NCBI RefSeq assembly: GCF_029952525.1
Contig: NZ_JASAOF010000010.1
Coordinates: 62,001-126,000 of the forward strand
Length of the DNA stretch: 64,000 nucleotides
Direction: 5' to 3'
From: Saccharopolyspora ipomoeae
GTDB lineage: Bacteria; Actinomycetota; Actinomycetes; Mycobacteriales; Pseudonocardiaceae
Positions 36,616 through 57,721 of this stretch are shown piece after piece. Below the pieces are notes generated by a model. The model saw only the letters and a program-made list of their open reading frames with translations. It searched no databases and was not told where the DNA came from. The translations under genes were made by a program, and so were the position numbers. The stretch's first letter is position 1; each line of letters starts with the position of its first letter.

Positions 36616-37449
36616 CTACTTGGAGCGGAAGTCCGCCGCCGACGTGGCGTCGGTGAGGTGGGGCCAGCGGGGTTCGTCGCCCTTGGGGTCGTCGCCGAGG
36701 ATCGTGACGCGGCGGCCGATGCGGCGTTCGGTGTAGTCGTTGACCGCGTAGTGCTGGGTGGCGCGGTTGTCCCACATGGCGATCGCGCCCTCGGTCCAGC
36801 TGAAGCGGCAGACGTTCTCCGGGCGCTCCGCCGCGGTGAACAGGTGCTGCAGGATCGCGTCGCTCTCCGCGCGCCGCAGCTGCGGGATGCGCAGCGTGAA
36901 CATGCGGTTGACGTACAGCGAGCGGCGGCCCGTCACCGGGTGCGCGCGCACCACCGGGTGCTCGGCCTCGAACACCGTGCCGTTGGGGTGGGTGAAGGAG
37001 TGCACGGCGGTGAGCCCGTCCAGGAAGTCCCGCAGCGGCGCCGAGAGGTTCTCGTAGGCCAGGTGCTGGTTGCTCCACATCGTGTCACCGCCGCGCGGCG
37101 GGCAGTGCACGATCTGCAGGATCGACGCGATCGGCGGGCTCGCCTGGAACGTGACGTCGGTGTGCCACACGTCGGCCTTCGCGCCCTGGTCTGAGTCGAG
37201 CACGACGATCTCGTCGTGGCCCTCCAGCTTCGGCAGGAACGGGTGCACCTCCGGCTCGCCCAGGAACCGACCGAAGGCCTTGTGCGCCTCGGGCGAGAGC
37301 TCCTCGGCCTCGGGGAAGAACAGCACCAGGTTCTCCAGCAGCAGCGCGTGCAGCTGCGCGAAGGTCTCCTCGGTCAGCCCTTCCAGGTCGACTCCGCGGA
37401 CCTCGGCGCCCAGCGCGCCGGAAGCCGGGCGCACGTCGATGCTCGACAT
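36616..37449 (-). CDS. TauD/TfdA-family Fe(II)/2-oxoglutarate dioxygenase
   Basis: 277 residues. Iron-binding facial triad: WHTDVTFQASPP (His and Asp, near residue 95) and the distal His in NRATQHYAVNDY. The 2-oxoglutarate Arg lies in YTERRIGRRVTILGD. Length and the VRGVDLEGLTEETFAQL start fit taurine/alpha-ketoglutarate dioxygenases. It hydroxylates or cleaves a small organic substrate with O2. It is divergent from the O-methyltransferase at 37610. Both lie at the edge of the terpenoid cluster and could decorate its product, or the dioxygenase may serve sulfonate use; no transport genes for sulfonates are near. Confidence 0.87.
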   Translation of the reverse strand: MSSIDVRPASGALGAEVRGVDLEGLTEETFAQLHALLLENLVLFFPEAEELSPEAHKAFGRFLGEPEVHPFLPKLEGHDEIVVLDSDQGAKADVWHTDVTFQASPPIASILQIVHCPPRGGDTMWSNQHLAYENLSAPLRDFLDGLTAVHSFTHPNGTVFEAEHPVVRAHPVTGRRSLYVNRMFTLRIPQLRRAESDAILQHLFTAAERPENVCRFSWTEGAIAMWDNRATQHYAVNDYTERRIGRRVTILGDDPKGDEPRWPHLTDATSAADFRSK

Positions 37450-37609
37450 GGGTGATCACCTCGTTCTCTCTCTGCTGCAGTCGTTTTCGGGCGCGCTCGC
37501 GCCCACGTGGGTCGTTGCGCGCACGTGCGTTGACGTGGTGTTGAGCAGTCGGTAAGGATGAAAAGCACGGAGGCGGACGGGTCTTCAATCCGAGAGAAAG
37601 CAGAGTTCC

Positions 37610-38620
37610 ATGGATTCCGAGGAATCGCGCAAGGCCGGTCTCGAACTCGCCGGCCTCATCGACCTGGCGACACCTTTCGCCATCCGCACGGCGGTGACGC
37701 TGAAGCTGCCGGAGCTCATCGCCGATGGCACCGGCGACGTCGCCGCGCTGGCCGAGGCGAGCGGCGCCGACCGGGACGCGCTGGAGCGGCTGCTCCGCCA
37801 CCTCGTCCACATCGGACTGTTCAGCGACGAGGACGGGAGTTACGGGCTCACGGCGCTGTCCCGCCGGCTGCTCGCCGAGGACGGCAAGTGGCTCAAGGAC
37901 TGGCTGCTCCTCGACGGCCCGGGCGCGCGGATGGACCTGGCCTTCAGCGGCATGCTGCACTCGGTGCGCACCGGCGCGTCGGCCTACGGCGCGGTGCACG
38001 GCACCCCGTTCTGGGACGACTACCAGCGCGACGACGACCTGCGGCGCTTCTTCGGCGACGTCATGGTCGCCTACGCCTGGCAGACCGGCCCGGTGCTGGC
38101 CGCCGAGTTCGACTGGGAGCCCGTCCGGAGCGTCATCGACATCGGCGGCGGGCAGGGCGCGCTGCTGTCGGAGATCGTCAAGGCCAACCCGCACCTCGAC
38201 GGCGAGGTCCTGGACCTGCCCGCCGTCGAGCCGGAGGCCGAGGAGTTCCTGCGCGAGGCCGGGGTGGCCGAGCGGGCGACGTTCGTGCCCGGCAGCTTCT
38301 TCGACGAGCTGCCCACCGGCCGGGACGTCTACCTGGTCTCGCGGGTGCTCACCGACTGGAACGACGAGGACGCTGCGCGGATCCTGCGGCGCTGCGCCGA
38401 AGCCGCGGGCCACGGCCGCGTGGTGATCGTCGAGGTGCTCGCCGGGGACTCCCACGCCCAGCAGAACACCTCGTTCGACCTGCAGTCGCTGGTGCTGCTC
38501 GGCGGCCGGGAGCGCAGCGTCGCCGACTTCGAGGTGCTGGCGGACAAGGCGGGCCTGACCGTCCTGGACACCCGCACCTGGCCCGGTGGTCTCGTCGTCG
38601 TGGAGTGCGGGAAGCGCTGA
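37610..38620 (+). CDS. SAM-dependent O-methyltransferase (family 2)
   Basis: 336 residues. N-terminal dimerisation helices with a winged-helix part (ATPFAIRTAVTLKLPELIADG, LERLLRHLVHIGLFSDED) precede the Rossmann SAM domain. Motif I is SVIDIGGGQGALLSEIVKA (about 175), then GEVLDLPAVEPEA and the later YLVSRVLTDWNDEDAARILRR with its Asp-Trp catalytic region. This is the fold of bacterial tailoring O-methyltransferases such as those for polyketides, phenazines and hydroxyneurosporene. It converges with the cluster operon ending at 38641, 20 bp away. Likely methylates a hydroxyl of the cluster product. Confidence 0.87.
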   Translation: MDSEESRKAGLELAGLIDLATPFAIRTAVTLKLPELIADGTGDVAALAEASGADRDALERLLRHLVHIGLFSDEDGSYGLTALSRRLLAEDGKWLKDWLLLDGPGARMDLAFSGMLHSVRTGASAYGAVHGTPFWDDYQRDDDLRRFFGDVMVAYAWQTGPVLAAEFDWEPVRSVIDIGGGQGALLSEIVKANPHLDGEVLDLPAVEPEAEEFLREAGVAERATFVPGSFFDELPTGRDVYLVSRVLTDWNDEDAARILRRCAEAAGHGRVVIVEVLAGDSHAQQNTSFDLQSLVLLGGRERSVADFEVLADKAGLTVLDTRTWPGGLVVVECGKR

Positions 38621-38640
38621 GCCGCGCACGGCGCCGGTCC

Positions 38641-39876
38641 TCACGCCCATCGGGGCCGGCGCCGCGACCGCGGATCGGGCACCAGGCCGAGCTGGCAGAG
38701 CCGGTCGAACGGCGTCATCGGGTGCAGCCCGAGCCCGGCGAGGTTGTGCATCACCTGGTAGCTGAGCCGCCGGTTCGCGCCGGTGTTGCGCAGCGCCCGC
38801 CGCCCGATGGCGCGGCCCGCCCACGACAGGTCGGTGAGCATCCGCGAGGCGTTGTGGCTGATCGTGCCGATCTGCTCGATCTCCGGCAGCCTGCGGTCCT
38901 GGTAGTCCCGCAACGCGCCGTCCACATCGGACCGCTCGGCGAGGCCGGTGCTCAGGGCGTGGGCGTCGTAGATGGCGCTGTTCATGCCCTGGGCAGCCAT
39001 CGGGTGCACCGAGTGCGCCGACTCGCCGACCAGCGCGATGCCGGGTGCCGCGATCGCGGGCGCGGTGAAGTGCGAGACCGGCAGCGTCTGCCGGTGCTCC
39101 ACGGCGGTGCGCAGCTGCTCCTCGAACTCCGCGAGCTCCGGCAGCTCGGTGAGCAGGGAGTCGGTCCAGCCGCGCAGCCCGACGTCGTCGATGCCCCGGA
39201 ACTCGTCCGGCTGGATCTGCACGTAGAGGCGAATCCTGCTGCCCGGCAACGGGTACCGCATCCGCAGGCCGCGCGCGGTGGTGTGGGCGACGACCTCGGG
39301 AGCGGCGTCGGGCACGTCGGCGAGGTCCAGGGCGACCAGCCGGTGCGGGTAGTCCCGCCGCCGCGCCTCGATCCCGGCCGCCTTGCGCAACCGCGAGGAG
39401 ATCCCGTCAGCGGCCACCACCAGCGGCGCCCGGATCTCGCCGTCGTTGAGCGCCGCACCGGCGATCCGGCCCCCGTCGCGGACCACGTCGGAGACCGGGA
39501 CGCCCCGGCGCAGCTCGACGGTGTCGGGCAGCGTGTCGGCCAGCGCCTCCAGGATCGACTCGTGGTCGGCCGAGAGCAGCCAGTTCGACCCGTCCGGCAG
39601 CTGCGAGTAGTCCAGCGCCATCCGGCCGCGCGCTTCCACCGCCACCAGCCGCGAAAGACGCACCGCGCCGCGCTCTTCCAGGACCTCGCTCACGCCCCAG
39701 GCTCGGAGGATCTTCAGCGCGCCGGGCTGCAGCACCTCGCCCTTGGGGATGCGGGGGACCGTCGCGCGCTTCTCGACGACCACGACCCGCAGGCCCAGCG
39801 CACCGAGCGCGTGCGCGGCGGCGAGCCCGCCCACACCCGCGCCGCAGACCACGGCATCGGCGTTCTCCGCACTCAT
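38641..39876 (-). CDS. FAD-dependent monooxygenase (UbiH/epoxidase-like)
   Basis: 411 residues. Rossmann start AVVCGAGVGGLAAAHALGALG, then RIPKGEVLQPGALKILRAWGV. The DG motif is PLVVAADGISSRLRKAAG (about residue 155), and the GD motif reads GIALVGESAHSVHPMAAQGMNSAIYDA (about 285), with GES in place of GDA. Class A flavin hydroxylases of this type epoxidise prenyl chains or hydroxylate aromatics. ATG 39876 overlaps the UbiA gene stop (ATGA). As the last gene of a prenylation operon it may epoxidise the terminal alkene, giving the substrate for the divergent cyclase. Confidence 0.87.
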   Translation of the reverse strand: MSAENADAVVCGAGVGGLAAAHALGALGLRVVVVEKRATVPRIPKGEVLQPGALKILRAWGVSEVLEERGAVRLSRLVAVEARGRMALDYSQLPDGSNWLLSADHESILEALADTLPDTVELRRGVPVSDVVRDGGRIAGAALNDGEIRAPLVVAADGISSRLRKAAGIEARRRDYPHRLVALDLADVPDAAPEVVAHTTARGLRMRYPLPGSRIRLYVQIQPDEFRGIDDVGLRGWTDSLLTELPELAEFEEQLRTAVEHRQTLPVSHFTAPAIAAPGIALVGESAHSVHPMAAQGMNSAIYDAHALSTGLAERSDVDGALRDYQDRRLPEIEQIGTISHNASRMLTDLSWAGRAIGRRALRNTGANRRLSYQVMHNLAGLGLHPMTPFDRLCQLGLVPDPRSRRRPRWA

Positions 39877-40829
39877 CCGGGAAGGGCCTCCTCGTCCGGG
39901 ATCTCGTGCCGCGACCGCATCACCGCCTGGGTCCACGCGCTGAACACCAGCGCCGGGACCAGCAGGGCCAGCACGACGGGAAGGGGCACCGTGCGCGCGA
40001 GGATCGCCGCGGCGAGCACGAGGCGCTCCACCACGAGGATCTCGTGCGCGCGCAGCGCCCGAGCCTGGCTCAACGTGGGCGCCAGCCGCACCAGCGGCAG
40101 CACCGCGATCAGACCGGCCCCGGCCGCGACGGTCAGCAGCAGCGCGAAACCGGGCCGGTGCGGCCACAGCAGAGCCGGCATCGCGATGCCGATCGCCGCG
40201 ACGTAGAGCCCGACGGCCAGCCGGGCGGCGTAGCGCTGCCCCTTGCGGACCGGGACCGAGCGGTACCCGGCGGAGCGGTCGCCGTCGACGTCCCGCATCG
40301 TGCCGACCAGGTTCGACGCCGTGTCGTGCAGCAGGAAGACCAGCGCGAACGCCACCGCCGACCACCCGGGGAGCGGGTCGGCGACCATCGAACCGATCAG
40401 GAACGCCAGCGCCGTCACCAGACCGCGCACCAGGTTCCCGGACAGGCCGATCGCCTTGCAGAACCGGCTGTAGGCCACGATCCCGCACAGCGCCAGCAGC
40501 ACCAGCGGCAACGCCAGCGAGTTCGCCCAGGTCAGCACCGTCGCCGAGGCCAGAGCGAAGCCGACGCCGCAGAACACGGCGGTGCCCGGCGCCAGCCTCC
40601 CCGACGGGATCGGGCGCTGCGGCTTGGCGAGCCGGTCCAGGTCCCGGTCGAAGTAGTCCCCGAGGTAGTGCGCGGACAGCCAGCCGAACGCGGTGCCGGA
40701 GCCCGCGAGCGCGAACTCGGCGAACCCGGCCGCCCCGCTGACCCCGGCGCCCGCCACGCCCACCAGCACCGGGTACGAGAGGGTGTAGGGCCGGGAGGTC
40801 TGGACGTGCGCCCACAGCGCGGTCCGCAT
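39873..40829 (-). CDS. UbiA-family membrane prenyltransferase
   Basis: 318 residues, eight to nine hydrophobic helices. First aspartate motif: GDYFDRDLDRLAKPQRPIPSG (D-x-x-x-D-x-x-x-D, about residue 60). The second is RDVDGDRSAGYRSVPVRKG (about 185). The pattern is closest to the geranylgeranyl-glyceryl-phosphate/chlorophyll and homogentisate-type branch. It joins a prenyl diphosphate to an acceptor in the membrane. ATG 40829 lies 2 nt after the polyprenyl synthase stop. The acceptor is not coded by an obvious aromatic-acid gene nearby; the aminotransferase may supply it. Confidence 0.87.
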   Translation of the reverse strand: MRTALWAHVQTSRPYTLSYPVLVGVAGAGVSGAAGFAEFALAGSGTAFGWLSAHYLGDYFDRDLDRLAKPQRPIPSGRLAPGTAVFCGVGFALASATVLTWANSLALPLVLLALCGIVAYSRFCKAIGLSGNLVRGLVTALAFLIGSMVADPLPGWSAVAFALVFLLHDTASNLVGTMRDVDGDRSAGYRSVPVRKGQRYAARLAVGLYVAAIGIAMPALLWPHRPGFALLLTVAAGAGLIAVLPLVRLAPTLSQARALRAHEILVVERLVLAAAILARTVPLPVVLALLVPALVFSAWTQAVMRSRHEIPDEEALPG

Positions 40830-40831
40830 CG

Positions 40832-41806
40832 TCACCGGCTCCGGTCGATGGACAGGTCCGCGATCGCCCGCATCCGCTCGACCGCCTCCGCGCCCGGCAG
40901 GCCCGCCAGGCTGTCGCGGGCGGCGGTGATCTCCTCGGCGGCGCGGGAGCGGCTGAGCTCCAGCGCGCCGGTCGACTCCAGCAGCTCGCGCATCAACCGG
41001 TGCGCCTCCTCGGCCGGGAGCTCGCCCGACAGCGCCTCGGCGAAGCGGGCCTTCCCGGCGCTGTCGGCGTTCTCGTGGCCCACCAGCACCGGGTGCGTCG
41101 GGCGCAGGTTCGCCACGTCGCTGGTGGCGGGCTTGCCGGTGCCCTCGCCCAGGTAGGGCAGCAGGTCGTCGTAGATCTGGAAGCCGACGCCGAGGTGCTC
41201 GGCGTAGCGGGTGACCGCGTCGGCCTGCTCGGGGGTCGCGCCGCCCAGGATCGCTCCGGCCCGGCAGGCACCCCGGAACAGCGCGCCCGTCTTGAGCGCC
41301 GCCATCTCCTGGTAGTCGGCGACCGGGCAGGTCAGATCGCCCGCCATCTCCGACTCCCGCACCTGGCCCCGGCACACGTCGGCGCCCGCGCCGGCCAGCA
41401 CCCGCGCGGCCTCCAGCACCGCGCCCGGTTCGGCCGAGCACTCCGAGAGGGCGGTGACCATCGTCAGGATCAGGAAGTCGCCGGTGACCAGCGCGTCGGC
41501 CATCCCGTAGCGGGCGTGCACCGTCTGGCGGCCCCGGCGCAGCTCGTCGTCGTCGATGATGTCGTCGTGCACCAGCGTCGCCACGTGCAGGTACTCCACC
41601 GCCAGCGCGGCGGGCAGCAGCGGGGCGCTGTTCCCGCCGGTGGCCTCCGCCGAGGTCAGCAGCAGCACCGGCCGCAGCATCTTGCCCGGAGCCAGCAGCG
41701 CGTGCCCGGCCATCTGCTCGGTGCGGTCGGCCACCGCCGACCACCGCTTGTCCATCTCCCGGCCGAGCAGCTCGACGAGCTCCGGGGCGAATCCGTCGTC
41801 GTTCAT
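40832..41806 (-). CDS. Polyprenyl diphosphate synthase, altered second Asp motif
   Basis: 324 residues, trans-isoprenyl synthase fold. First aspartate-rich motif LVHDDIIDDDELRRGR is intact, with upstream PGKMLRPVLLL and GDFLILTMVT. The second reads FQIYDDLLPYLGEGTGKPATSD (D213-D214-L-L-P217), where the canonical DDxxD has Pro instead of the last Asp. Many bacterial enzymes keep DDxxD here, so chain-length or metal handling may differ. It would make GPP/FPP/GGPP for the UbiA enzyme. ATG 41806 forms an ATGA overlap with the aminotransferase stop. Confidence 0.85.
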   Translation of the reverse strand: MNDDGFAPELVELLGREMDKRWSAVADRTEQMAGHALLAPGKMLRPVLLLTSAEATGGNSAPLLPAALAVEYLHVATLVHDDIIDDDELRRGRQTVHARYGMADALVTGDFLILTMVTALSECSAEPGAVLEAARVLAGAGADVCRGQVRESEMAGDLTCPVADYQEMAALKTGALFRGACRAGAILGGATPEQADAVTRYAEHLGVGFQIYDDLLPYLGEGTGKPATSDVANLRPTHPVLVGHENADSAGKARFAEALSGELPAEEAHRLMRELLESTGALELSRSRAAEEITAARDSLAGLPGAEAVERMRAIADLSIDRSR

Positions 41807-42825
41807 GCCGAAACCGGTCGCTGCGCTGCGGAATCCGCGACGAACCGGCGCGCGACCTCCAGCAGCTCGTCGTTGGCCTCGGCCGTGCCGACCGTGACCC
41901 GCACCCCGGCGCCGTCGGCCAGCGTGCGCACCGCGATGCCCTCCTCCGCGCATCGGCGCACGAACTCCTCGTTGCCCTCGCCCAGCTTGAGCCAGTGGAA
42001 GTTGGCCCGGCTGCGCGGCACGTCGATGCCGAGCTCGCGCAGTCCCGCGTGCACCCGGTCGCGCTCGGCGGCCACCGCCGCGCACCGCTCGCGCATCGCC
42101 TCCTCGGCTCCCAGCGCCGCGATCGCGGCGTCCTGGGCGACCGTGCTGACCCGGTAGAAGTAGGAGCCCGGGGTCAGCGCCGTCACCACCGAGGGGTCGG
42201 CGACGAGGTAGCCGACCCGCAGGCCCAGCAGCCCGTGCGACTTGGAGAAGGTGCGCACCACCGTCACCCGCGAGTCCTCGGCCGCCGCCCGCAGTCCGTC
42301 GGCGAGCTCGGCGGGATCGGCGAAGTCGGCGTAGGCCTCGTCGATGAGCACGCGCACCCCTGCGGGCAGCCGGTCCAGGAACGCGCGCAGCTCGTCCGCG
42401 CCGAACGCCGCGCCGGTCGGGTTGTTCGGGTTGCACAGCAGCACGACGCTGGTCCGCTCGGTGACGGCGTCGGCCATCGCGGCCAGGTCGTGCGCGTCGT
42501 CGCGCAGCGGCACCGGCACGGCCGTCGCACCCGCGCAGCGCACCAGCAGCGGGTACATCTCGAACGACGGCCACGCGTGCACGATCTCGCCACCGCCGGC
42601 GAACGCTGTCAGGAACTGCTGCAGCAGCGCACCCGAACCGGGCCCGACGAACACCCGCGAGGCGTCCACCCCGTGGTGCTCGGCGATGGCCCGCGTCAGA
42701 CCGGCCGACATCGCGTCGAGGGTGAGGTTGATCCGCTCCGATCCCGCCACGACGGCCTCGCGGACACCGGGCAGCGGTGGCGCGAAGTTCTCGTTGAGGG
42801 ACAACTGGTGCCGAATGGTGGGCAC
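41803..42825 (-). CDS. PLP-dependent class I/II aminotransferase (HisC-like)
   Basis: 340 residues from GTG 42825, with GGAG about 9 nt upstream. HisC-type start LSLNENFAPPLPGV. The PLP sites are FVGPGSGALLQQFLTAF, VVLLCNPNNPTGAAF (Asn), VLIDEAYADFADP (Asp-x-x-Tyr) and the Schiff-base Lys in RTFSKSHGLLGLRVGYL. C-terminal Arg for the carboxylate or phosphate lies near GVRVTVGTAEAND. True HisC is normally within the his operon, so here a tailored role is likely: making or consuming an amino or keto acid used as the prenyl acceptor, or aminating a terpenoid aldehyde. First gene of the prenylation operon. Confidence 0.85.
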   Translation of the reverse strand: MPTIRHQLSLNENFAPPLPGVREAVVAGSERINLTLDAMSAGLTRAIAEHHGVDASRVFVGPGSGALLQQFLTAFAGGGEIVHAWPSFEMYPLLVRCAGATAVPVPLRDDAHDLAAMADAVTERTSVVLLCNPNNPTGAAFGADELRAFLDRLPAGVRVLIDEAYADFADPAELADGLRAAAEDSRVTVVRTFSKSHGLLGLRVGYLVADPSVVTALTPGSYFYRVSTVAQDAAIAALGAEEAMRERCAAVAAERDRVHAGLRELGIDVPRSRANFHWLKLGEGNEEFVRRCAEEGIAVRTLADGAGVRVTVGTAEANDELLEVARRFVADSAAQRPVSA

Positions 42826-43277
42826 AGGCCGGTCTCCGTTCCTCGACAAGTGCGCGCGTGCCTGCTCACGAGCGCGCAGCGTTCGAGCGCAGAGGGAAGT
42901 TCCGGAAATCAGGCGAGACGAATTTTTCGCAGTTCTCCCCGCACTCAGAGCCTGACGTCGACGATCTTGATCCGCGTTCTCCCGCGTTGTCAACGAATCC
43001 CGGTCAACACGGGGTAAATCCCAGGGATGACCCTGAAAAGCCCAGCTCGGACTCGGGGTCGCGGAACAGTTCACTGTGGATGGATCGAGAATTTCCCGGA
43101 GGTCCGGGAATTTGCCGGATTAACAATTGTTGCGGCCGCGGAACAGCACCTGGTCGAAGATCGAGCGCTGGCGTAGAGTCCGGCCGCGCGTCGAAAACGG
43201 CCATCGGGCAACGAATTCGACGCGACCCCTGAGCATGAGGCCGCGCGATCGTGCGCGACCGGAGTGGAGGCAGCCGC
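42826..43277. promoter_or_regulatory. 452-bp divergent promoter region of the terpenoid cluster
   Basis: No convincing ORF. It lies between the aminotransferase operon (minus) and the cyclase/P450 operon (plus). It holds TTCCCGGA-GG-TCCGGGAA, a perfect 8-bp inverted repeat at 43093-43110, and AACAATTGTT, a 10-bp palindrome at 43122-43131. Local AT content is higher than in the genes, notably GACGAATTTTTCGC near 42920 and GGATTAACAATTG. These are good candidates for operators of an unlinked regulator, since no regulator gene lies inside the cluster. TGGAGG precedes the cyclase ATG by 9 nt. Confidence 0.6.
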
Positions 43278-44954
43278 ATGACGACCGTCCCCGAGGAGCT
43301 CGACCGGGCGATCGGCGAGGGCGCTGAAGCCCTGTTCGCGGCCCAGCGCGCCGACGGCGTGTTCGACTACAGCGCGGACAACCTGACCTCCACCCTCGGC
43401 ACCGTCGGGGCCCTGTCTGCGCTGCACCACGCCGACCCGCGGGGCAGCGCCGACCTGATCGAGGCCGGGGTGGGCTGGCTGCGGCGCACCCAGAACCCCG
43501 ACGGCGGCTGGGCGATGGTCCCCGGGCTGGACAGCGAAGCCGGTCCCACGGCGGTGAGCTCGGCGGTGCTGCACCTCGTCGACCCCGACGGCAGCGCCGA
43601 GGCGGTGCGCGCCGGGCAGCGCTGGATGGACGACTTCGGCGGTCTCGACGCGATCCCGCACCCGGAGGTCGTGTCCTGGTGCCGCCAGTACTACGGCTTC
43701 GTCGGCTGGCTCTCCGCCGACGAGATGCGCCGGTTCCCGCTGGAGCTGGGGATGCTGCCGGGCCTGCACCGCAAGGTCTTCGACCTGCGCATCCCGATGG
43801 CCTTCGCGCTCGGCCTCGCCCAGGCCCGGCACAAGCCGCTCAACCCCGTGCAGAAGCTGCTGGCCAAGCTCGGCGAACCGGGCGCGCTCAAGGCGATCCG
43901 CCAGGTCCACGAGCACGAGGGCTCCACCGGCGCCTGGTGCGAGAACGCGTGGGTGACGGGGCTGGTGTGCACCGGACTCGCCCGCGCAGGGCTCGCGCCC
44001 GACCTCGTCGAGGCCGCCGTGCAGTGGTTCCGCAAGACGATGGACCCCGAGGGCTGGTGGCAGACCGGCCCGCTCGACGCCGCCTGGACCATGTACGCCG
44101 CGCGCGGCCTCGCCGAAGCCGGCTACGCCGACGACCCCCGGCTGACCGCCTCGGTGGACCTGTTCGTGCGGTTGCAGCAGCACCGCCCGTTCCTGGCCTT
44201 CGGCTGCCCGCCCGGCTACTGGGGCTGGGCGGGCACCGCGGGATGGCCCTCGACGCTGGAGACCGGCGAGATCCTGTCCGTGCTCTCCCGCCTGCCCGGT
44301 GACCGGCAGGCCGGGGCGGTGACCGCCGGGGTCGACTGGCTGACCCGCATGCAGGACTCGCGCGGCTCGTGGGGGCTGTGCGTGCGCAACACCAAGGTCG
44401 CCAACAGCGGGCCCTGCCCGATGACGACCGTGCAGGCCGTCGACGCGCTGCTCGACGCCGGAATCCCCTCCTCCGACAGCAGGATCCGCCGCGCGCTGCG
44501 CTGGCTGTCGACCGCCCAGCTGCCCGACGGCGCGTTCGAGTCGGTCTGGTACCGGCACCACACGATGGCCACCGCCGCCGTGCTGGAGACCTTCGCCCGC
44601 GCCGGTCAGGCCGACGGCGACACCGCCCGCCGCGCGCAGCGGTGGCTGGAGCGGGCTCGCCTCGACGACGGCTCGTGGGGCGACGGCCACGGTGCGCCCG
44701 CCACCGTCGAGGAGACCGGCTGGGCCGTCTCCGGCCTGCTCGCCGCCGGAGCCGACCCGGAGTCGGTGCGCGCGGGCGTCGACCGGCTGCTGGAGCGGCG
44801 CGAGCCCGGTGGTGGGTGGCCGTCGGAGAGCGTCAACGAGTACGTGCGCCACGTCAGCCGCTACAGCAATCCCGCGCTCGCCCAGGGCATGGCGCTGCGC
44901 GCCCTCGGCCGCTACCGCAACTCGCAGCGCCTCACGAACGGAGAACACGCATGA
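43278..44954 (+). CDS. Class II terpene-cyclase-fold protein without DxDD motif
   Basis: 558 residues, an alpha/alpha-barrel protein of the squalene-hopene cyclase/prenyltransferase-beta superfamily. QW-type repeats: RRTQNPDGGWAM, TRMQDSRGSWGLCV, STAQLPDGAF, ERARLDDGSWGDG, ERREPGGGWPSE. In squalene-hopene cyclases the catalytic DxDDTA lies about 45 residues before a MQxxxGGW repeat. At that exact place this protein has S325-T-L-E328-TG, so the proton-donating Asp is gone and only Glu remains. It may start from an epoxide made by the flavoenzyme, use Glu328, or not be a cyclase at all. The P450 start overlaps its stop. Confidence 0.8.
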   Translation: MTTVPEELDRAIGEGAEALFAAQRADGVFDYSADNLTSTLGTVGALSALHHADPRGSADLIEAGVGWLRRTQNPDGGWAMVPGLDSEAGPTAVSSAVLHLVDPDGSAEAVRAGQRWMDDFGGLDAIPHPEVVSWCRQYYGFVGWLSADEMRRFPLELGMLPGLHRKVFDLRIPMAFALGLAQARHKPLNPVQKLLAKLGEPGALKAIRQVHEHEGSTGAWCENAWVTGLVCTGLARAGLAPDLVEAAVQWFRKTMDPEGWWQTGPLDAAWTMYAARGLAEAGYADDPRLTASVDLFVRLQQHRPFLAFGCPPGYWGWAGTAGWPSTLETGEILSVLSRLPGDRQAGAVTAGVDWLTRMQDSRGSWGLCVRNTKVANSGPCPMTTVQAVDALLDAGIPSSDSRIRRALRWLSTAQLPDGAFESVWYRHHTMATAAVLETFARAGQADGDTARRAQRWLERARLDDGSWGDGHGAPATVEETGWAVSGLLAAGADPESVRAGVDRLLERREPGGGWPSESVNEYVRHVSRYSNPALAQGMALRALGRYRNSQRLTNGEHA

Positions 44955-46153
44955 CCGGCGCGACGCAGCAGGACTCCTTCACCGAGGACTACTGGCAGGA
45001 CCCGCACGCCGCGTTCGCCGAGGCGCGCGCGACCTGCCCCGTCCAGGCGGTCGACTTCGAGGGCGGCCGGACGTGGCTGGTCACCCGCTACGACGACGTC
45101 AAGGCCGGGCTCACCGACGAGCGGCTCGCCAAGGACTGGCGCGCCTGCCTGCCCCCGGAGGAGCGCGAAACGGCCCCGCCCGGCCTGCCCGCGCCGATGT
45201 CGCACATGCTGACCTCCCTCGACCCGCCGGAGCACACCCGGCTCCGCGCCCTGGTCACCCAGGCGTTCACCGCCCGCCGCATCGCCACCCTGCGCCCGCG
45301 CGTGGAGGAGCTCGCCGAGGAGCTGCTGGCGGAGCTGCCCGAGGACGAGACCGTGGACCTGGTGGCGCGGTTCGCGATCGTGCTGCCGATGGTGGTGATC
45401 AGCGAACTGCTCGGCGTGCCCGAGATCGACCAGGCGGAGTTCGCCCGGCTGTCCACAGTGCTCATCGACGAGTGCCCCGACGAGGAGCTGGCCCGCGCCT
45501 CCGCGCAGATGGCGACCTACCTGGAGGGCCTGGTCGCGGCCAAGCGCGCCGCCCCCGACGACGCGCTGCTGTCGGCGCTGATCTCCGCTTCCGACGAGGG
45601 CGACCGGCTCTCCGACCTGGAGATCGTCGCGATGGCGATGCTGCTGCTCATGGCCGGGCACGAGACCACGGCGGTGTTCATCACCAACGCGGTGCGCGCC
45701 CTGGTCGACGACGACGCGGCCCGCGCCCGGCTGTCCGAACCGGAGAAGGTGCCGTCGCTGGTCGAGGAGCTGCTGCGCTGGCTGTCACCGGCGCTGAACG
45801 CCTCGCTGCGCTTCGCCACCGAGGACGTGGACATCGGCGGCGTGCGGATCGCCCGCGGCGAGTCGGTGACCCTGTCGACCGGCGCCGCCAACCGCGACCC
45901 GCAGCGCTACCCGAACCCGGACGTCCTCGACCCCGACCGCGACGTCAGCGGCCACGTCGCCTTCGGCCACGGCATCCACCGCTGCCTCGGCGCGGCCCTG
46001 GTCCGGCTCGAAGGCGAGATCGCCCTGTCCGCCCTGTTCACCCGGCACCCGGACCTCTCGATCGAGGCCGACCCGGCCGAGCTCACCTACCGCCGCAGCG
46101 TCCACGTCCACGCCCCGCGAACCCTGCCGGTCCGGCTGGGCCCCCGGGCCTGA
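44951..46153 (+). CDS. Cytochrome P450
   Basis: 400 residues, soluble bacterial CYP. I-helix LLLMAGHETTAVFITNAV with the acid-alcohol pair, the K-helix ExxR in VEELLRWLSPA, and the heme loop VAFGHGIHRCLGAALVRLEG with the Cys ligand are all present. Earlier parts carry SLDPPEHTRLRALVTQAFT, typical of CYP105/107-like actinomycete enzymes. ATG 44951 overlaps the cyclase stop (ATGA), so it should oxidise the cyclase product. Electron-transfer partners are not encoded nearby. The stop codon directly abuts hairpin copy 4. Confidence 0.93.
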   Translation: MTGATQQDSFTEDYWQDPHAAFAEARATCPVQAVDFEGGRTWLVTRYDDVKAGLTDERLAKDWRACLPPEERETAPPGLPAPMSHMLTSLDPPEHTRLRALVTQAFTARRIATLRPRVEELAEELLAELPEDETVDLVARFAIVLPMVVISELLGVPEIDQAEFARLSTVLIDECPDEELARASAQMATYLEGLVAAKRAAPDDALLSALISASDEGDRLSDLEIVAMAMLLLMAGHETTAVFITNAVRALVDDDAARARLSEPEKVPSLVEELLRWLSPALNASLRFATEDVDIGGVRIARGESVTLSTGAANRDPQRYPNPDVLDPDRDVSGHVAFGHGIHRCLGAALVRLEGEIALSALFTRHPDLSIEADPAELTYRRSVHVHAPRTLPVRLGPRA

Positions 46154-46275: not shown

Positions 46276-47034
46276 CTACGACGCCACGACGAGGTCGAGA
46301 CCTCGGGCGTGGAAGTGGGCCGTGGTGGCCGGGTCCGCCGCGGCGTCGGTGACCAGGATCCAGTCGGGGCTGAGCGGGGCCTGGGCGCGGAACGGGCGGC
46401 GGCCGAGCTTGTCGGCGTGCACCAGCACGTAGACGCGATCGGCCCGCCGTGCCATGAGCTCCTTGAGGCGGGTCTGCTCCAGGTCCGCCTCGCAGATCCC
46501 GTGCTCGGCGGTGACGCCGTCGGCGCCCAGGAACGCGCGGTCGAAAGTCCGCCGTTCCAGGGCGGCCTCGGTCAGCGGCCCCACGAAGCCCTGGCTCAGC
46601 GGCCGCAGGGCACCGCCCAGGCACTCGATGCGCAGGTCCGAGTGGGCCAGCTCGTGCAGCACCGTGATCGAGGTGGTGACGATCGTCAGGTCGCTGCGGT
46701 GCGCCAGCTCGCGGGCCAGGGCGGTGGTGGTGCTGCCCGAGTCGAGCAGCACCGTCTCACCGGGGCGCACCTGCTCGGCCGCCCAGCGGGCGATGGTGCG
46801 CTTGGCGTCGGCGGCCTCGCCGTTGCGCTGGCCCAGCGAGGCCTCGTGCTGCACCGGGATCGCCCCGCCGTAGGTGCGGGCGAGGCGGCCCGCCGCCTGC
46901 AGCTGGGCCAGGTCCCGCCGGATCGTCGAGGCCGTCACCCCGAACGCCCGCGACAGCTCCTCGACGCTGGTCAGCCCGGAACCCTCGGCCAGGTCGAGGA
47001 TCGCGTCCCGTCGTTCCCGCGCCCCGCGCGCCAT
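46276..47034 (-). CDS. DeoR-family sugar-phosphate-responsive repressor
   Basis: 252 residues from ATG 47034, which has GAGGGG 7 nt upstream; GTG 47049 overlapping the pdxA-like stop is possible. HTH: RRDAILDLAEGSGLTSVEELSR, AFGVTASTIRRDLAQLQAAGRL. The ribose-5-phosphate-isomerase-like effector domain follows, with AIPVQHEASLGQRNGEAADAK, LLDSGSTTTALARELAHR, ITVLHELAHSDLRIECLGG and FLGADGVTAEHGICEADLEQT. DeoR proteins answer to phosphorylated sugars. Last gene of the operon with the kinase and the dehydrogenase, and the likely binder of the large operator at 49296-49335. Confidence 0.88.
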   Translation of the reverse strand: MARGARERRDAILDLAEGSGLTSVEELSRAFGVTASTIRRDLAQLQAAGRLARTYGGAIPVQHEASLGQRNGEAADAKRTIARWAAEQVRPGETVLLDSGSTTTALARELAHRSDLTIVTTSITVLHELAHSDLRIECLGGALRPLSQGFVGPLTEAALERRTFDRAFLGADGVTAEHGICEADLEQTRLKELMARRADRVYVLVHADKLGRRPFRAQAPLSPDWILVTDAAADPATTAHFHARGLDLVVAS

Positions 47035-47045
47035 CCCGTTGCCCC

Positions 47046-48044
47046 TCACGCGCAGAGGTTCGCGGCCTGCCGCAGGGCCTCGACCATGCTGTCGGAGCTG
47101 GCCTTGCCCGTGCCCGCGATGTCGAAGGCCGTGCCGTGGTCGACCGAGGTGCGGATGACCGGCAGCCCGACGGTGATGTTCACGCCGGTCTCGATGCCCA
47201 GCACCTTCACCGGGCCGTGGCCCTGGTCGTGGTACATCGCGACGATCAGGTCGTACTCGCCGCGCGTGGCCAGGAAGAACGCGGTGTCGGCCGGCAGCGG
47301 GCCCTGCGCGTCGATGCCGTCGGCGCGCAGCTTCTCCAGCGCGGGGACGATCTTGGAGTCCTCCTCGCCGTAGCCGAACAGCCCGTTCTCGCCCGCGTGC
47401 GGGTTGATCCCGCAGACGCCGATGCGCGGGGATTCCACCCCGGAATCGCGCAGCGTCCGGTCGCCCCGGCGCACGGTGCGCTCCACCAGACCGGGTTCGA
47501 TCTTGGCGACGGCGTCGAGGAGCCCGACGTGGGTGGTCACGTGGATGACCTTCATCGTCGGCGCCGCGAGCATCATCGACACCTCCTCGGTGCCGGTCAG
47601 GTGCGCGAGGAGTTCGGTGTGACCGGGGAAGATGTGCCCGGCCGCGTGCAGCGCCTCCTTGTTCAGCGGCGCGGTGCAGATGGCCTGGGCGGCACCGCTG
47701 GTCGCCAGCTCGCTGGCCACCCGGATGTAGTGGAAGGCGGCGTCCCCGGCCACCGGCGACACCTCGCCCCAGGCCAGGTCGTCGGGCAGCAGGCCGAGGT
47801 CGACGACGTTGATCCGGCCCGGGGTGAAGACCGCGTCGTCGATCGAGTCGACCGCGACGATCTCGGCCTCGGCACCGAGGATCTCCGCGGCCTGGCGCAG
47901 CCGGGCCGCGTCGCCGATGACGACGGGGCGGCAGCGGCCGGCGGTGTCGGCGTCGAGGAGCGCGCCGACGGTGACCTCGGGGCCGACTCCGGCGCCGTCG
48001 CCCATCGTCACGGCGATCACCGGGGTGGGGGAGGCACTGTTCAT
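47046..48044 (-). CDS. PdxA2-type 4-phospho-sugar-acid dehydrogenase
   Basis: 332 residues. PdxA fold signatures: VIAVTMGDGAGVGPEV at the start, AICTAPLNKEALHAAGHIFPGHTELLA (metal/substrate), MKVIHVTTHVGLLDAV, IGVCGINPHAGENGLFGYGEE and IVAMYHDQGHGPVKVLG with metal His residues. The classic enzyme oxidises 4-phosphohydroxythreonine for vitamin B6. PdxA2 paralogues coupled with DUF1537 kinases oxidise D-threonate or D-erythronate 4-phosphate. The direct overlap with a DUF1537 kinase gene makes the catabolic role much more likely here. Its ATG 48044 overlaps the kinase stop. Confidence 0.87.
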   Translation of the reverse strand: MNSASPTPVIAVTMGDGAGVGPEVTVGALLDADTAGRCRPVVIGDAARLRQAAEILGAEAEIVAVDSIDDAVFTPGRINVVDLGLLPDDLAWGEVSPVAGDAAFHYIRVASELATSGAAQAICTAPLNKEALHAAGHIFPGHTELLAHLTGTEEVSMMLAAPTMKVIHVTTHVGLLDAVAKIEPGLVERTVRRGDRTLRDSGVESPRIGVCGINPHAGENGLFGYGEEDSKIVPALEKLRADGIDAQGPLPADTAFFLATRGEYDLIVAMYHDQGHGPVKVLGIETGVNITVGLPVIRTSVDHGTAFDIAGTGKASSDSMVEALRQAANLCA

Positions 48045-49213
48045 TGGGGCAACCTTTCGATTCCTGCGGGACTGAGGTGTTCGACGATGCGGGCGAGGCT
48101 GTCGGCCTCGCCGAAGCTGCCGGGCCGGGTCACCACCGAGGTGCCCTCCGGCGTGCGGCAGACGACCGCGCCGTGGTGGACCTGACCGACCGGGCTCAGC
48201 GAGCGCACGCCCAGCGCGTCGAGGACCAGCCGCGCGGTCTCCCCGCCGGTGAGCACCAGGTCCACCGGGCTCGGGCAGCCTTCGACGATGCGCGCGGCGG
48301 TGGCGGCCAGGCCGCGCGCCCGCTCCCGGGAGCGCTCCGGTGCGATCGGTTCGGACGGGTCGATGCGCAGCGCGACCGGGCCGTGCTCCAGAGCGGCCAG
48401 CGCGCGGGGGACGATCTCGCCGGTGTGGTCGAGGACGCGCGTTCCGCGCAGTTCGGCGAGGCGCAGCTGCTCGGCGGCGGTGGGCGAGCCCGTGCCGACG
48501 ACCATCAGCAGCGGGTTTCCCGTTGCCGGGTGCGGATTTTCGGCCACCGGGGCCGTGGCGGTGCGGCCGAGCGCGGCGGCCAGACCACCGGACCCGGCGA
48601 GCAGGGCGCCGTCCGGTGCCGCGGCGACCACGGCGTCCAGGTCGGCGTCGGTCTCGCCGTCGCAGATCGGAACCCGGCCCGCGGCGAGGCATTCCGCGAT
48701 CGCACCGGCCAGCGCGTCCGAGCGGACGATCTCCAGCGCGATGCCGCGGCAGCGGAGCGGGGTCAGCGCTTCGGCGACGCTGCGCGGCGGCGCGGTGCCT
48801 TCGACCCGCCAGCCGTCCGAGAGGTGCAGCGGCACTCCGCGCACGTGCGCGACCCCACCTGCCACGGTCCGGCCCAGCGCGGGCAGGGCAGGTGCGACGA
48901 CCAGCGGCCGGTCCGCCGCCGCGCCCAGCACCGCCGCCACGGGGCCGCGCAGCTGCGAGTCGATCTTGATGAACACCGGTCGCCCGCCCTGCTCGCGCAG
49001 CGCCTCCCGGGCGCGTTGGCTCGCCTCGGCGGCCGGGAGGGCGCGGTTGTCGAGGTCCGCCACGACCACGCTCTGCGCGTTGTGCGCAAGTGGCGCGGAA
49101 TTCGGTCCGCTCAGCTCGACGGTCGTCGAGCGGCCGAGAGGGCGCAGGCACGCGGCGGTCTCCACCGCTCCGGACAGGTCGTCCGCCAGCGCGAGCAGCC
49201 CTTCTGTCAGCAC
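48041..49213 (-). CDS. Four-carbon acid sugar kinase (DUF1537 family)
   Basis: 390 residues from GTG 49213, with GAGGAG 6 nt upstream. N-terminal substrate half: LLALADDLSGAVETAACL (the DDxxG that binds the acid sugar), FIKIDSQLRGPVAAVLGAA. The C-terminal nucleotide half has LLMVVGTGSPTAAEQLRLAEL, DLVLTGGETARLVLDALGV (GGET) and VVTRPGSFGEADSLARIVEHL. DUF1537 enzymes phosphorylate D-threonate, D-erythronate or related C4 acids before oxidation by a PdxA2 or similar dehydrogenase. First gene of a three-gene operon ending in the DeoR regulator. Confidence 0.88.
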   Translation of the reverse strand: MLTEGLLALADDLSGAVETAACLRPLGRSTTVELSGPNSAPLAHNAQSVVVADLDNRALPAAEASQRAREALREQGGRPVFIKIDSQLRGPVAAVLGAAADRPLVVAPALPALGRTVAGGVAHVRGVPLHLSDGWRVEGTAPPRSVAEALTPLRCRGIALEIVRSDALAGAIAECLAAGRVPICDGETDADLDAVVAAAPDGALLAGSGGLAAALGRTATAPVAENPHPATGNPLLMVVGTGSPTAAEQLRLAELRGTRVLDHTGEIVPRALAALEHGPVALRIDPSEPIAPERSRERARGLAATAARIVEGCPSPVDLVLTGGETARLVLDALGVRSLSPVGQVHHGAVVCRTPEGTSVVTRPGSFGEADSLARIVEHLSPAGIERLPQ

Positions 49214-49295
49214 GTTCAGCTCCTCGTCGTGGATGGTGGCAGCGGCTGGCCGCGCCCTCCGGCCGCTGTGGCGGGGTGTCTCCACGCTAGCTGGT

Positions 49296-49335
49296 TTGCG
49301 CGTTTCGCGCTATGACTATTGCGTGAAACGCGCAA
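49296..49335. promoter_or_regulatory. Large inverted-repeat operator between kinase and AKR operons
   Basis: TTGCGCGTTTCGCGC (49296-49310) and GCGTGAAACGCGCAA (49321-49335) are complementary at 14 of 15 positions, with a 10-bp AT-rich spacer (TATGACTATT). It lies in the 187-bp divergent gap, 83 bp from the kinase start and 66 bp from the aldo/keto reductase. Both operons are thus likely co-regulated, most simply by the adjacent DeoR protein. Confidence 0.75.
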
Positions 49336-49400
49336 CCCTGCCATCGTGAGCTCCACAACGAGGCCGGGTGGCCACCGCCGTTCCCCCGAGGAGTTCCCGC

Positions 49401-50384
49401 ATGACCGTTCCGCGTTTGGAGGTGCCCGGCGTCGAGGTGCCCCTGTCGTCCCTCGTGCTCGGGACGATGACGTTCGGCGACACCGCGGACGCCGCGACCG
49501 CCGCGAGGATGCTCGACACCGCGCTCGACGCGGGCATCAACGCGGTCGACACCGCCAACGGCTACGCGGGCGGTGACACCGAGCGCATCCTCGGCGAACT
49601 GCTGCCCGCCCGCCGCGACCGCGTCTCGCTGGCCACCAAGGCGGGCATGCCGCACCCGGACGCGGGCGAGCACGCGCCGCTGTCCCCGAAGGGCCTGCGC
49701 GCCGGCCTCGACGGCAGCCTCTCGCGGCTCGGTGTGGAGCGCGTCGACCTGTTCTACCTGCACCAGCCCGACCGCGCGACGCCGCTCGCCGACACGCTCG
49801 CCACGCTCGCCGACCTGGTCGCCGAGGGCAAGATCGGCGCCTGGGGCGTCTCCAACTTCGCCGCCTGGCAGATCGCCGAGCTCCGCCACGTCGCCGACGA
49901 GGTCGGCGCCCCGCGCCCGGTCGTCGCCCAGCAGCTCTACAACCTGCTGGCCCGGCGCGTCGATGAGGAGTACGTCGAGTTCGCCCGGGTCACCGGGCTG
50001 CTCACGGTCGTCTACAACCCGCTGGCGGGCGGGCTGCTCACCGGCAGGCACAGCTTCGAGTGCGATCCCTCCTCCGGGCGCTTCGCCGACTCCCGGCTCG
50101 CCGGGATGTACCGCGAGCGCTACTGGGACGAGCGGCTCTTCGACGCCATCGCCCGCCTCGCCTCGATCGCCGACGACGCCGGGATCCCGCTGGTCGACCT
50201 GGCGCTGCGCTGGGTCCTGAGCAAGCCGGTGACCTCCGCGCTGCTGCTCGGCGGCTCGAAGGTCGAGCAGCTCGAAGCCAACATCGCGGCCCTGGGCGCC
50301 GGGGCGCTGCCGGCCGACGTCGTGGACGCCTGCGACGAGGTCGGCGCGTTCCTGCGCGGCCCGATGCCCGCCTACAACCGCTGA
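49401..50384 (+). CDS. Aldo/keto reductase
   Basis: 327 residues, NADPH-type TIM-barrel AKR. Catalytic tetrad: Asp in GINAVDTANGYAGG (with Tyr), Lys in VSLATKAGMP, His in DLFYLHQPDR. SNFAAWQIAEL and LLGGSKVEQLEANIAAL form the cofactor-binding end. CGAGGAG precedes ATG 49401. It begins the operon with an HpcH aldolase, a sialidase-like protein and an Nramp-like transporter, opposite the kinase operon. It likely interconverts a sugar or sugar-acid aldehyde and alcohol in that pathway. Confidence 0.87.
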   Translation: MTVPRLEVPGVEVPLSSLVLGTMTFGDTADAATAARMLDTALDAGINAVDTANGYAGGDTERILGELLPARRDRVSLATKAGMPHPDAGEHAPLSPKGLRAGLDGSLSRLGVERVDLFYLHQPDRATPLADTLATLADLVAEGKIGAWGVSNFAAWQIAELRHVADEVGAPRPVVAQQLYNLLARRVDEEYVEFARVTGLLTVVYNPLAGGLLTGRHSFECDPSSGRFADSRLAGMYRERYWDERLFDAIARLASIADDAGIPLVDLALRWVLSKPVTSALLLGGSKVEQLEANIAALGAGALPADVVDACDEVGAFLRGPMPAYNR

Positions 50385-50411
50385 TCTCACCTGAGGAAGA
50401 GGGGAAGAACC

Positions 50412-51173
50412 GTGTCCGCTGCGGAATTCGCGCGCAAGCTGCGCGCCCGCGAGAGGGTCGTCGGCTACTGGATCGTGCTCGACAACCCGATCGGCACCGA
50501 GCGCATCGCGCGCCTGGGCTACGACTACGTCGCGGTCGACGCCCAGCACGGCCTGCTCGGCTACTCGGGGCTGCTCAACGCCATGATGGCCATCGACGCC
50601 GGAGGCGCCTCGATCGGCCTGACCAGGGTCGAGGCCAACGACCCTGCCGCCATCGGCCACGCGCTCGACGCGGGCTCCAGCGGCATCATCGTGCCGCTGG
50701 TCGACACCGCCGAGGACGCCCGCGCCGCCGTCGAGGCCACCCGCTACCCGCCGCGCGGCCGCCGCTCCTACGGCCCGATGCGCTCCGGCCTGCGGATCGG
50801 ACCGCGCCCGGCCGAGGCCGACGAGTCCGTGGTGCTGCTGGCGATGATCGAGACCCCGGAGGGCCTGGCCAACGTCCGCGAGATCTGCGCGACCGAAGGC
50901 ATCGACGGCGTCTACGTCGGCCCGTCGGACCTGTGCCTGGCCGTCGGCGGCGCGTTCCCGGGCGACCCGGCCGTGGCCGAGGAGTTCGAGCAGGCCGTGG
51001 CCGACGTCCAGCGGGCCGCCGCCGAAGCCGGGATCGCCGCGGGCATCCACACGTCCGACGGCGCCACCGCCGCGCGCAGGCTGGAGCAGGGCTACACCTT
51101 CGCCAGCGTCGCCAGCGACCTGACGCACCTGGAGCGCGTGGCCGGCGAGCACCTGGCGGCGGTGAAGCCGTGA
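50412..51173 (+). CDS. HpcH/HpaI-family class II aldolase
   Basis: 253 residues from GTG 50412. TIM-barrel marks: VGYWIVLDNPIGTERIARLG, YVAVDAQHGLLGYSGLL (the D-x-Q-H-G base), SSGIIVPLVDTAEDARAAV, VVLLAMIETPEGLANV (Glu metal ligand) and VYVGPSDLCLAVGG (Asp metal ligand). Members cleave 4-hydroxy-2-oxo acids, such as 2-keto-3-deoxy sugar acids, to pyruvate and an aldehyde. In this sugar-acid operon it probably carries out the final carbon-carbon cleavage. Followed by the sialidase-like gene with a GTGA overlap. Confidence 0.87.
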   Translation: MSAAEFARKLRARERVVGYWIVLDNPIGTERIARLGYDYVAVDAQHGLLGYSGLLNAMMAIDAGGASIGLTRVEANDPAAIGHALDAGSSGIIVPLVDTAEDARAAVEATRYPPRGRRSYGPMRSGLRIGPRPAEADESVVLLAMIETPEGLANVREICATEGIDGVYVGPSDLCLAVGGAFPGDPAVAEEFEQAVADVQRAAAEAGIAAGIHTSDGATAARRLEQGYTFASVASDLTHLERVAGEHLAAVKP

Positions 51174-55071: not shown

Positions 55072-55410
55072 GATTGAACCGCAGGGGCCGGAAGTCAAAT
55101 CGAATTCACCGAAGAACCGATAACTCGGGACTATCGCGTTTCCCATTTTCAGCGGGAAAAGGCGTGTCGCGATTCGGCGTGATCCTGGGCACAGTCGAGC
55201 CCGGTTCGGGGCGCTTTCTGAACAGATCCTGGGTCCGTGACCAGCTGGTTTGATCGATCAAGGCGGTGCTGGTGCGGGTTGTGAACCGCTGTTTATCAAC
55301 CCATAGGCGACGGTTCTTTGACTTCGCCCGGAACGGAGCCAAAGCTGACGTTCGCAACGATTTCGTTCAGCGCACCGGTGCGCTGAGGTGAACAGGGGAA
55401 CGGCGACAGC
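55072..55410. promoter_or_regulatory. Divergent moeA/fdhF promoter region with two palindromes
   Basis: 339 bp without a gene. TTGATCGATCAA is a perfect 12-bp palindrome at 55250-55261. TCAGCGCACCGGTGCGCTGA is a perfect 20-bp palindrome at 55367-55386, ending 24 bp before the fdhF-like ATG. AACGATTTCGTT overlaps its left side. The second site is well placed for a repressor of the fdhF-fdhD operon. The stretch near moeA is AT-rich for this genome (ATTTGAC, GATAACTCGGG). Confidence 0.6.
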
Positions 55411-57702
<2,292 letters not shown>

Positions 57703-57721
57703 CCCTGGAGAGGTGGTCACG

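Follow-up and report, generated by a model that had tools for sequence, protein, structure and literature searches.

Eight adjoining biosynthetic genes of Saccharopolyspora ipomoeae probably form the core of a meroditerpenoid pathway of the brasilicardin/phenalinolactone type, and by homology their product would be an unglycosylated β-methoxy α-amino acid diterpenoid close to the brasilicardin aglycone. The genes lie at positions 36616 to 46153 of the window, a stretch of 64,000 nucleotides from contig NZ_JASAOF010000010.1 (positions 62,001 to 126,000 of the forward strand), to whose own numbering all coordinates refer. Their assignment to the kin of the brasilicardin (bra) and phenalinolactone (pla) clusters is firm; this small, medically interesting family is already known, and the window holds a widely kept variant of it. 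A sequence-only reading of the window had described a meroterpenoid cluster with enzymes for prenylation, epoxidation, cyclization and oxidation, which is borne out here, while its statement that the set could not be matched to a known product falls, since the core matches both families; its interpretation as a whole is partly supported.

The eight genes were found where that reading had placed them, and each of the eight proteins exceeds the Pfam cut-off for its named fold. A HisC-like class I/II aminotransferase (AT; 41803..42825, PF00155, 182.4 bits), a polyprenyl diphosphate synthase (PPS; 40832..41806, PF00348, 181.2 bits), a UbiA-family prenyltransferase (39873..40829, PF01040, 117 bits) and a flavin adenine dinucleotide-dependent monooxygenase (FMO; 38641..39876, PF01494, 118.5 bits, with 32.9 bits to the squalene epoxidase profile) form a single coupled run on the minus strand, in which PPS and AT as well as FMO and UbiA overlap by 4 bp and UbiA starts 2 bp past the PPS end. 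On the same strand, past a plus-strand gene for a Methyltransf_2-family methyltransferase (OMT; 37610..38620, PF00891, 134.8 bits), lies the gene for a PlaO1-like Fe(II)/2-oxoglutarate dioxygenase of the TauD/TfdA family (TauD; 36616..37449, PF02668, 201.5 bits). A squalene-hopene-cyclase-fold protein (43278..44954, PF13243 and PF13249) and a cytochrome P450 (P450; 44951..46153, PF00067, 84.7 bits), also overlapping by 4 bp, make up a coupled plus-strand pair divergent from the AT operon across 452 bases between the chosen starts (42826..43277), where the AT start (GTG at 42825) was picked by the length of relatives and its open frame extends further upstream.

Likeness to the brasilicardin cluster

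Brasilicardin is a tricyclic diterpene directly joined to an amino acid side chain, and the available parts of two reports describe its cluster as a dioxygenase gene, bra0, divergent from bra1-11, of which bra1-6 lead to the core, bra11 together with bra0 provides the methoxy group, and bra7-9 and bra10 are presumably responsible for hydroxybenzoate and rhamnose (PMC7837296, PMC12185567). The reference cluster (Nocardia terpenica BGC0000632, bra0-bra12) was compared by published layout, not by sequence. A cyclase match at E 1e-40 or better occurs in three of 150 Nocardia genomes, and one of these three, G968, shows a TauD gene divergent from an AT-PPS-UbiA-cyclase-FMO-P450 row, followed by a PapA-type acyltransferase gene and, after about 0.9 kb, by an OMT gene, which is the published bra0 / bra1-6 / bra11 plan. 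All seven core genes of the window, AT included, are matched there (TauD 62%, PPS 51%, FMO 49%, AT 48%, OMT 47%, cyclase 43% and UbiA 42% identity), and the window thus holds the brasilicardin-type core of AT, PPS, UbiA, squalene-hopene cyclase (SHC)-fold cyclase and FMO, together with TauD and a methyltransferase. The P450 is 35% identical over 236 aligned residues to that of G968, which is a split, fragmentary copy. Elsewhere in the genus, Nocardia G1087 was considered as a cluster member and rejected (cyclase 35% identical, NTGN motif, no AT or TauD match).

In the part of a report available, Nocardia arthritidis is described as keeping 9 of 13 bra genes with no rearrangement and with the regulator missing (PMC12153302), and since G968 has at least nine genes of bra kind, it may be N. 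arthritidis. The sequence-only reading had left open whether the AT points to an amino-acid-derived acceptor or to an aminated terpenoid; the second option is now favored, because the closest described layout is that of brasilicardin, a diterpene core with an amino acid side chain, as given in the accessible text (PMC7837296). The same reading had named a MIBiG match to a known cluster as a refutation, and by this test its claim is partly refuted: an antiSMASH survey, in the portion seen, has brasilicardin A among the matches of Lentzea fradiae CGMCC 4.3506, locus not given, and xiamycin A rather than brasilicardin as a terpene-type match in L. xinjiangensis CGMCC 4.3525 (PMC9120177). Both strains (L110 and L109, respectively) carry all eight window genes.

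The window also differs from the bra cluster in having another P450, an OMT gene adjoining TauD, and a cyclase gene divergent from the AT operon. Genes of the bra7-bra10 type, for 3-hydroxybenzoate and rhamnosyl transfer, are absent from the Pfam matches of the window neighbors that were scanned, a sample that took in neither every frame nor the rest of the genome. Given this lack of decorating genes among the scanned neighbors and the differing P450, brasilicardin A itself is an unlikely product.

Phenalinolactone-type clusters and rival readings

A stretch of PlaO1 was searched against 392 Streptomyces genomes at a threshold of E 1e-85, which gave matches in 16, with identities of 83-99% in four and 57-61% in twelve; 12 of these 16 genomes were fetched, leaving out G559 (the genome of locus L118), G614, G655 and G931. 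The copy in G774 is 99% identical to PlaO1, and the 40 kb around it hold matches to sugar genes, a gene of ketosynthase III type, an acyl-CoA dehydrogenase and P450s; because of this identity and these sugar and decorating genes, we regard the locus as the pla cluster itself or a close copy. The pla type, known from the phenalinolactone producer Streptomyces sp. Tu6071, shares with the window UbiA, a cyclase lacking the DxDD motif, FMO and a PlaO1-type TauD, which in the pla type stand in a single block, with NFLD at the cyclase motif. The window TauD and the PlaO1 copy of a pla-type cluster share 57% identity, and the UbiA and FMO are 47% and 53% identical to the pla-type copies. By contrast, the window AT and OMT have no match in the four pla-type loci, including the 40 kb around PlaO1 in G774, where a DegT-type (sugar-pathway) aminotransferase is found, and the sugar and decorating genes of G774 have no counterpart among the window neighbors scanned. 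In the other eight Streptomyces loci fetched, AT is present in seven and OMT in two, while the eighth locus is a short contig.

A product resembling phenalinolactone or the tiancilactones was weighed on this evidence. In such a pathway the TauD enzyme would form an oxidized γ-butyrolactone from a pyruvate-derived tail, and the AT would only supply or recycle an α-keto acid. The lactone of phenalinolactone is itself pyruvate-derived. The accessible text on the tiancilactones presents them as close phenalinolactone analogues discovered through mining for type II diterpene synthases of atypical kind (PMC10301674), and their likeness to the window is by description, the compounds of Streptomyces CB03234/CB03238 bearing chloroanthranilate and butyrolactone moieties. 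A paper on phenalinolactone cited elsewhere is entitled in part 'Sequential prenylation, epoxidation, and cyclization' (title as seen in PMC13307353). Three points speak for a lactone: among solved relatives the window TauD is nearest to PlaO1, UbiA and FMO have slightly higher identity to the pla type, and the TauD tree leans the same way. The AT and OMT, unmatched in the four pla-type loci and both present in the bra-layout cluster, and a cyclase tree that separates the window from pla speak against it, so that this reading is unlikely. In the cyclase tree, the window and G968 fall into one clade of 28 rows (100/98) with the pla cyclases outside, and in the AT tree seven housekeeping copies, among them the paralogue of the window's own genome, split from 24 cluster copies (100/99). 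What favors brasilicardin-like over phenalinolactone-like chemistry is the cyclase tree together with AT and OMT.

Another reading takes its model from the zig cluster of Micromonospora zingiberis, whose first three genes encode, as in the window, an aminotransferase, a polyprenyl synthase and a UbiA enzyme, and in which zigA-zigB-zigC lead to prenylated indole-3-pyruvate (PMC13307353). The AT of the window would then make an arylpyruvate, such as indole-3-pyruvate, and UbiA would prenylate this aromatic acceptor. The neighboring AT, PPS and UbiA genes in zig order, a likeness by gene description, and a putative phenylalanine aminotransferase as the nearest relative of the AT agree with it. 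However, the zig cluster works through a Pyr4-like membrane cyclase, a thiamine diphosphate (TPP) enzyme and quinolone formation, and its listed genes include neither an SHC-fold cyclase nor a TauD (PMC13307353); the TPP enzyme and the Pyr4-like cyclase are not among the eight genes of the window, whose cyclase, TauD and AT each have a counterpart in the bra-layout cluster. Such zigralone-like logic is quite unlikely. A search of the family of genome G303 with the window UbiA gave one match in 251 genomes.

Several observations weigh against the brasilicardin-like assignment. Kinship with bra was judged through the G968 copies and descriptions of bra, not through bra sequences, and equating bra1-bra6 with the six G968 genes is our inference, while geranylgeranyl diphosphate (GGPP), the proposed product of the PPS, rests on likeness to the bra-layout copy. 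UbiA and FMO are nearer to the pla type (47% and 53%) than to G968 (42% and 49%), and their trees do not resolve whether pla lies inside or outside the AT-bearing group. An unrooted TauD tree places pla beside G968 and the Micromonospora-type copies rather than beside the window. In the midpoint-rooted AT tree, the G968 copy comes nearer to the housekeeping copies than the window's clade does, and a single recruitment of the AT is accordingly not established. Moreover, locus L132 has no FMO match, and L122 and L123 have no OMT match.

Cyclase, partner enzymes and proposed pathway

The cyclase has the two-domain fold of SHC enzymes. A profile built from 32 relatives matches squalene-hopene cyclases at 7.6e-58, with weaker matches to lanosterol synthase, drimenyl diphosphate synthase and MstE; the AlphaFold2 model has a mean predicted local distance difference test (pLDDT) score of 92.6, and squalene-hopene cyclases are its best solved neighbors in Foldseek (template modeling score by query, 0.78). 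In SHC enzymes, the middle Asp of the DxDD motif is the catalytic acid. This motif is absent from the window cyclase, in which S325-T-L-E328 aligns with the DVDD of the Alicyclobacillus enzyme, so that the middle Asp is replaced by Leu (L327) with a Glu (E328) adjoining. Among the tallied loci that bear an AT, some genomes being counted twice under two locus ids, the fourth place is Glu in 81 of 81 and the third is Leu in 77 of 81, otherwise Val or Met. The bra-layout cyclase of G968 has VTLE and the four pla-type cyclases have NFLD; more distant cyclases show ESED, ETDD, NALE or NSGN, with DIDD and DVDD in two SHC-like copies. Opening an epoxide should need a weaker acid than protonating an alkene, which fits the neighboring FMO. 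We propose that the window cyclase is an epoxide-opening class II meroterpenoid cyclase, and we infer that E328 is its acid.

Other cyclases of this kind occur in different surroundings. Three genomes of the window's own genus (L078, L079 and L080) hold a second kind, 37-38% identical and with a NAME/NALE motif, in a cluster with PPS, FMO and two P450s and no UbiA, AT or TauD match, which is another terpenoid cluster without DxDD. In five Pseudonocardiaceae loci (L084, L087, L089, L090 and L091), an ESED/ETED cyclase stands with UbiA and at least three P450 matches, with no AT, FMO or TauD matches. As well, L132 (Pseudonocardia sp. TRM90224) retains VTLE in its cyclase with no FMO match, and by analogy with what has been reported for ZigK, a P450 might epoxidize there instead (PMC13307353).

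Catalytic motifs of TauD, AT and UbiA are intact in the aligned copies. The closest solved relative of TauD is PlaO1 (E 3e-102, the runner-up at 2.2e-59), and the alignment shows that HTD and the distal His are kept; in the Streptomyces loci L160 and L164, where AT is present and OMT has no match, the iron motif reads HID instead of HTD. UbiA has both Asp-rich motifs, and the best solved relative of FMO is 2x3n. The PPS residues ahead of the first Asp-rich motif are identical to those of the G968 copy, and several chain lengths are matched in NCBIfam, none above its cut-off. The AT scores 361.9 bits against the HisC-like profile PRK03321 (cut-off 374), has 4r2n, a putative phenylalanine aminotransferase, as its best solved relative, and keeps the pyridoxal phosphate Lys motif SKSHG; a separate paralogue in the same genome is 42% identical. 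The best solved relatives of the OMT are O-methyltransferases, and a role as an α-keto-acid C-methyltransferase, suggested by a weak NCBIfam match, was rejected on that ground. In place of the His found in the two best solved relatives (HDW motif), the enzymes of the window and of L172 have Thr; SRVLTDW is common to the window and the Nocardia G968 copy, and L132 has Ser.

Read from homology, the pathway would begin with GGPP synthesis by PPS, after which UbiA would couple the C20 chain with a three-carbon unit of pyruvate type, FMO would epoxidize the terminal double bond, and the non-DxDD class II cyclase would open the epoxide to give a tricyclic ring system with a hydroxyl group. The PlaO1/Bra0-like TauD would then hydroxylate the side chain, the methyltransferase would O-methylate this hydroxyl, as is the role of bra11, and the AT would convert the α-keto acid into an α-amino acid, with the P450 possibly adding an optional late oxidation. 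Cyclization could precede or follow coupling; in atolypene biosynthesis it reportedly comes ahead of coupling. The atolypene (ato) cluster of Amycolatopsis tolypomycina is a further candidate match. In the open-license literature searched, no title or displayed abstract was found to describe the product of a window-type cluster.

The available text of one report describes brasilicardin A as an effective immunosuppressant and a high-affinity inhibitor of L-type amino acid transporters (PMC7606929), and that of another calls its methoxy group crucial for activity (PMC12185567). The producer is a pathogen and hard to work with. If the assignment is right, many soil actinomycetes would hold the core of brasilicardin chemistry without the decorations; the enzymes for cyclization, side-chain dioxygenation and amination could then be studied outside the pathogen, and related terpenoid amino acids could be sought as a family. 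A wider and more tentative possibility, which we consider rather doubtful as a whole, is that the window is one member of a large family, unexplored in its chemistry, that makes unglycosylated terpenoid β-methoxy (or β-hydroxy) α-amino acids in Pseudonocardiaceae and some Streptomyces, Nocardia and Micromonospora. Brasilicardin would then be a late, decorated offshoot, the cyclase acid would have shifted by one residue to the Glu beside Leu, and, given the transporter inhibition by brasilicardin A, the members may have in common that they interfere with the uptake of amino acids. The cyclase family itself poses the question of which residue protonates the epoxide in place of the DxDD acid.

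Conservation across genomes and surroundings

Among 297 genomes of the family, the window's own included, 59 match the cyclase at E 1e-20 or better, and 43 besides its own have a cyclase at least 44% identical, which makes 44 of 297, or about one in seven sampled species; the identity thresholds in this tally are the authors' choice. Flanking sequence, at most 19.5 kb per locus, was retrieved for 42 of the 43, the exception being G055, for which no wide stretch around its closest copy was fetched. The sequence-only reading had made its case depend on the divergent halves staying together in other genomes, and they do: AT, PPS, UbiA, FMO, OMT and TauD all lie beside the cyclase in 40 of the 42 loci, counting as complete L070, whose AT is cut by the contig end (127 residues). 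The two exceptions are L063, tallied without UbiA though another listing shows it, and L072, which lies near a contig end and has no TauD or OMT match. In the 17 tallied loci whose cyclase is more distant, neither an AT nor a TauD match occurs. L086, L111 and L113 have no cyclase row in the tally and are hence absent from the counts; outside it, L111 and L113 carry all eight genes and L086 neither AT nor TauD. The P450 is optional, a copy at least 60% identical being found in 23 of the 42.

The nearest Saccharopolyspora loci follow the window order, whereas others have AT-PPS-UbiA-cyclase-FMO in a row with OMT opposed. That the set is kept despite this reshuffling is expected of a working pathway, and the linkage of the genes is not due to chance. 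A decayed or product-free cluster kept by chance, with which the reshuffled order between genera would agree, is very improbable in view of the complete set of partners in 40 of the 42 loci and the intact TauD, AT and UbiA motifs.

Named carriers include Saccharopolyspora, Saccharothrix, Umezawaea, Actinokineospora, Lentzea, Amycolatopsis, Actinosynnema, Crossiella and Pseudonocardia, and further Nocardia albiluteola, Micromonospora echinofusca and several Streptomyces. Of the 35 named loci, which overlap the 297-genome set and are not independent of it, 33 were tallied; a cyclase at least 44% identical is present in 31 of the 33, and all six partners in 27 of those 31, the others being L122, L123 and L132, as mentioned above, and L126, a short contig with no FMO or TauD matches. 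Scanning the families that flank the 31 named loci, we found a major facilitator superfamily (MFS) transporter to be, beyond the P450, the only plausible family common to several genus groups; it adjoins 7 of the 31 (two scanned and confirmed), and the other flanking groups seem to be core genes read in the wrong frame. Since it is the sole such family besides the P450, the boundaries 36616-46153 are taken as the cluster's own.

Some loci deserve separate mention. Two AT copies, one by the cyclase and one by the PPS, occur in L104, L105, L106, L131, L049, L050, L051 and L096. A contig titled Candidatus Melainabacteria (L124 / L071) carries a full actinobacterial cluster of the window type and is probably wrongly binned. 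Moreover, the cyclase of L108 (Nocardia sp. NRRL S-836) groups with Lentzea in the tree, and this strain name may be out of date.

Downstream of the cluster in the window, positions 46276-51173 hold genes for a DeoR regulator, PdxA-like, sugar-acid kinase-like and HpcH-like proteins and an aldo/keto reductase, resembling a sugar-acid catabolic operon, and a row of MoeA-like, molybdopterin oxidoreductase and FdhD-like genes lies at 53824-58564.

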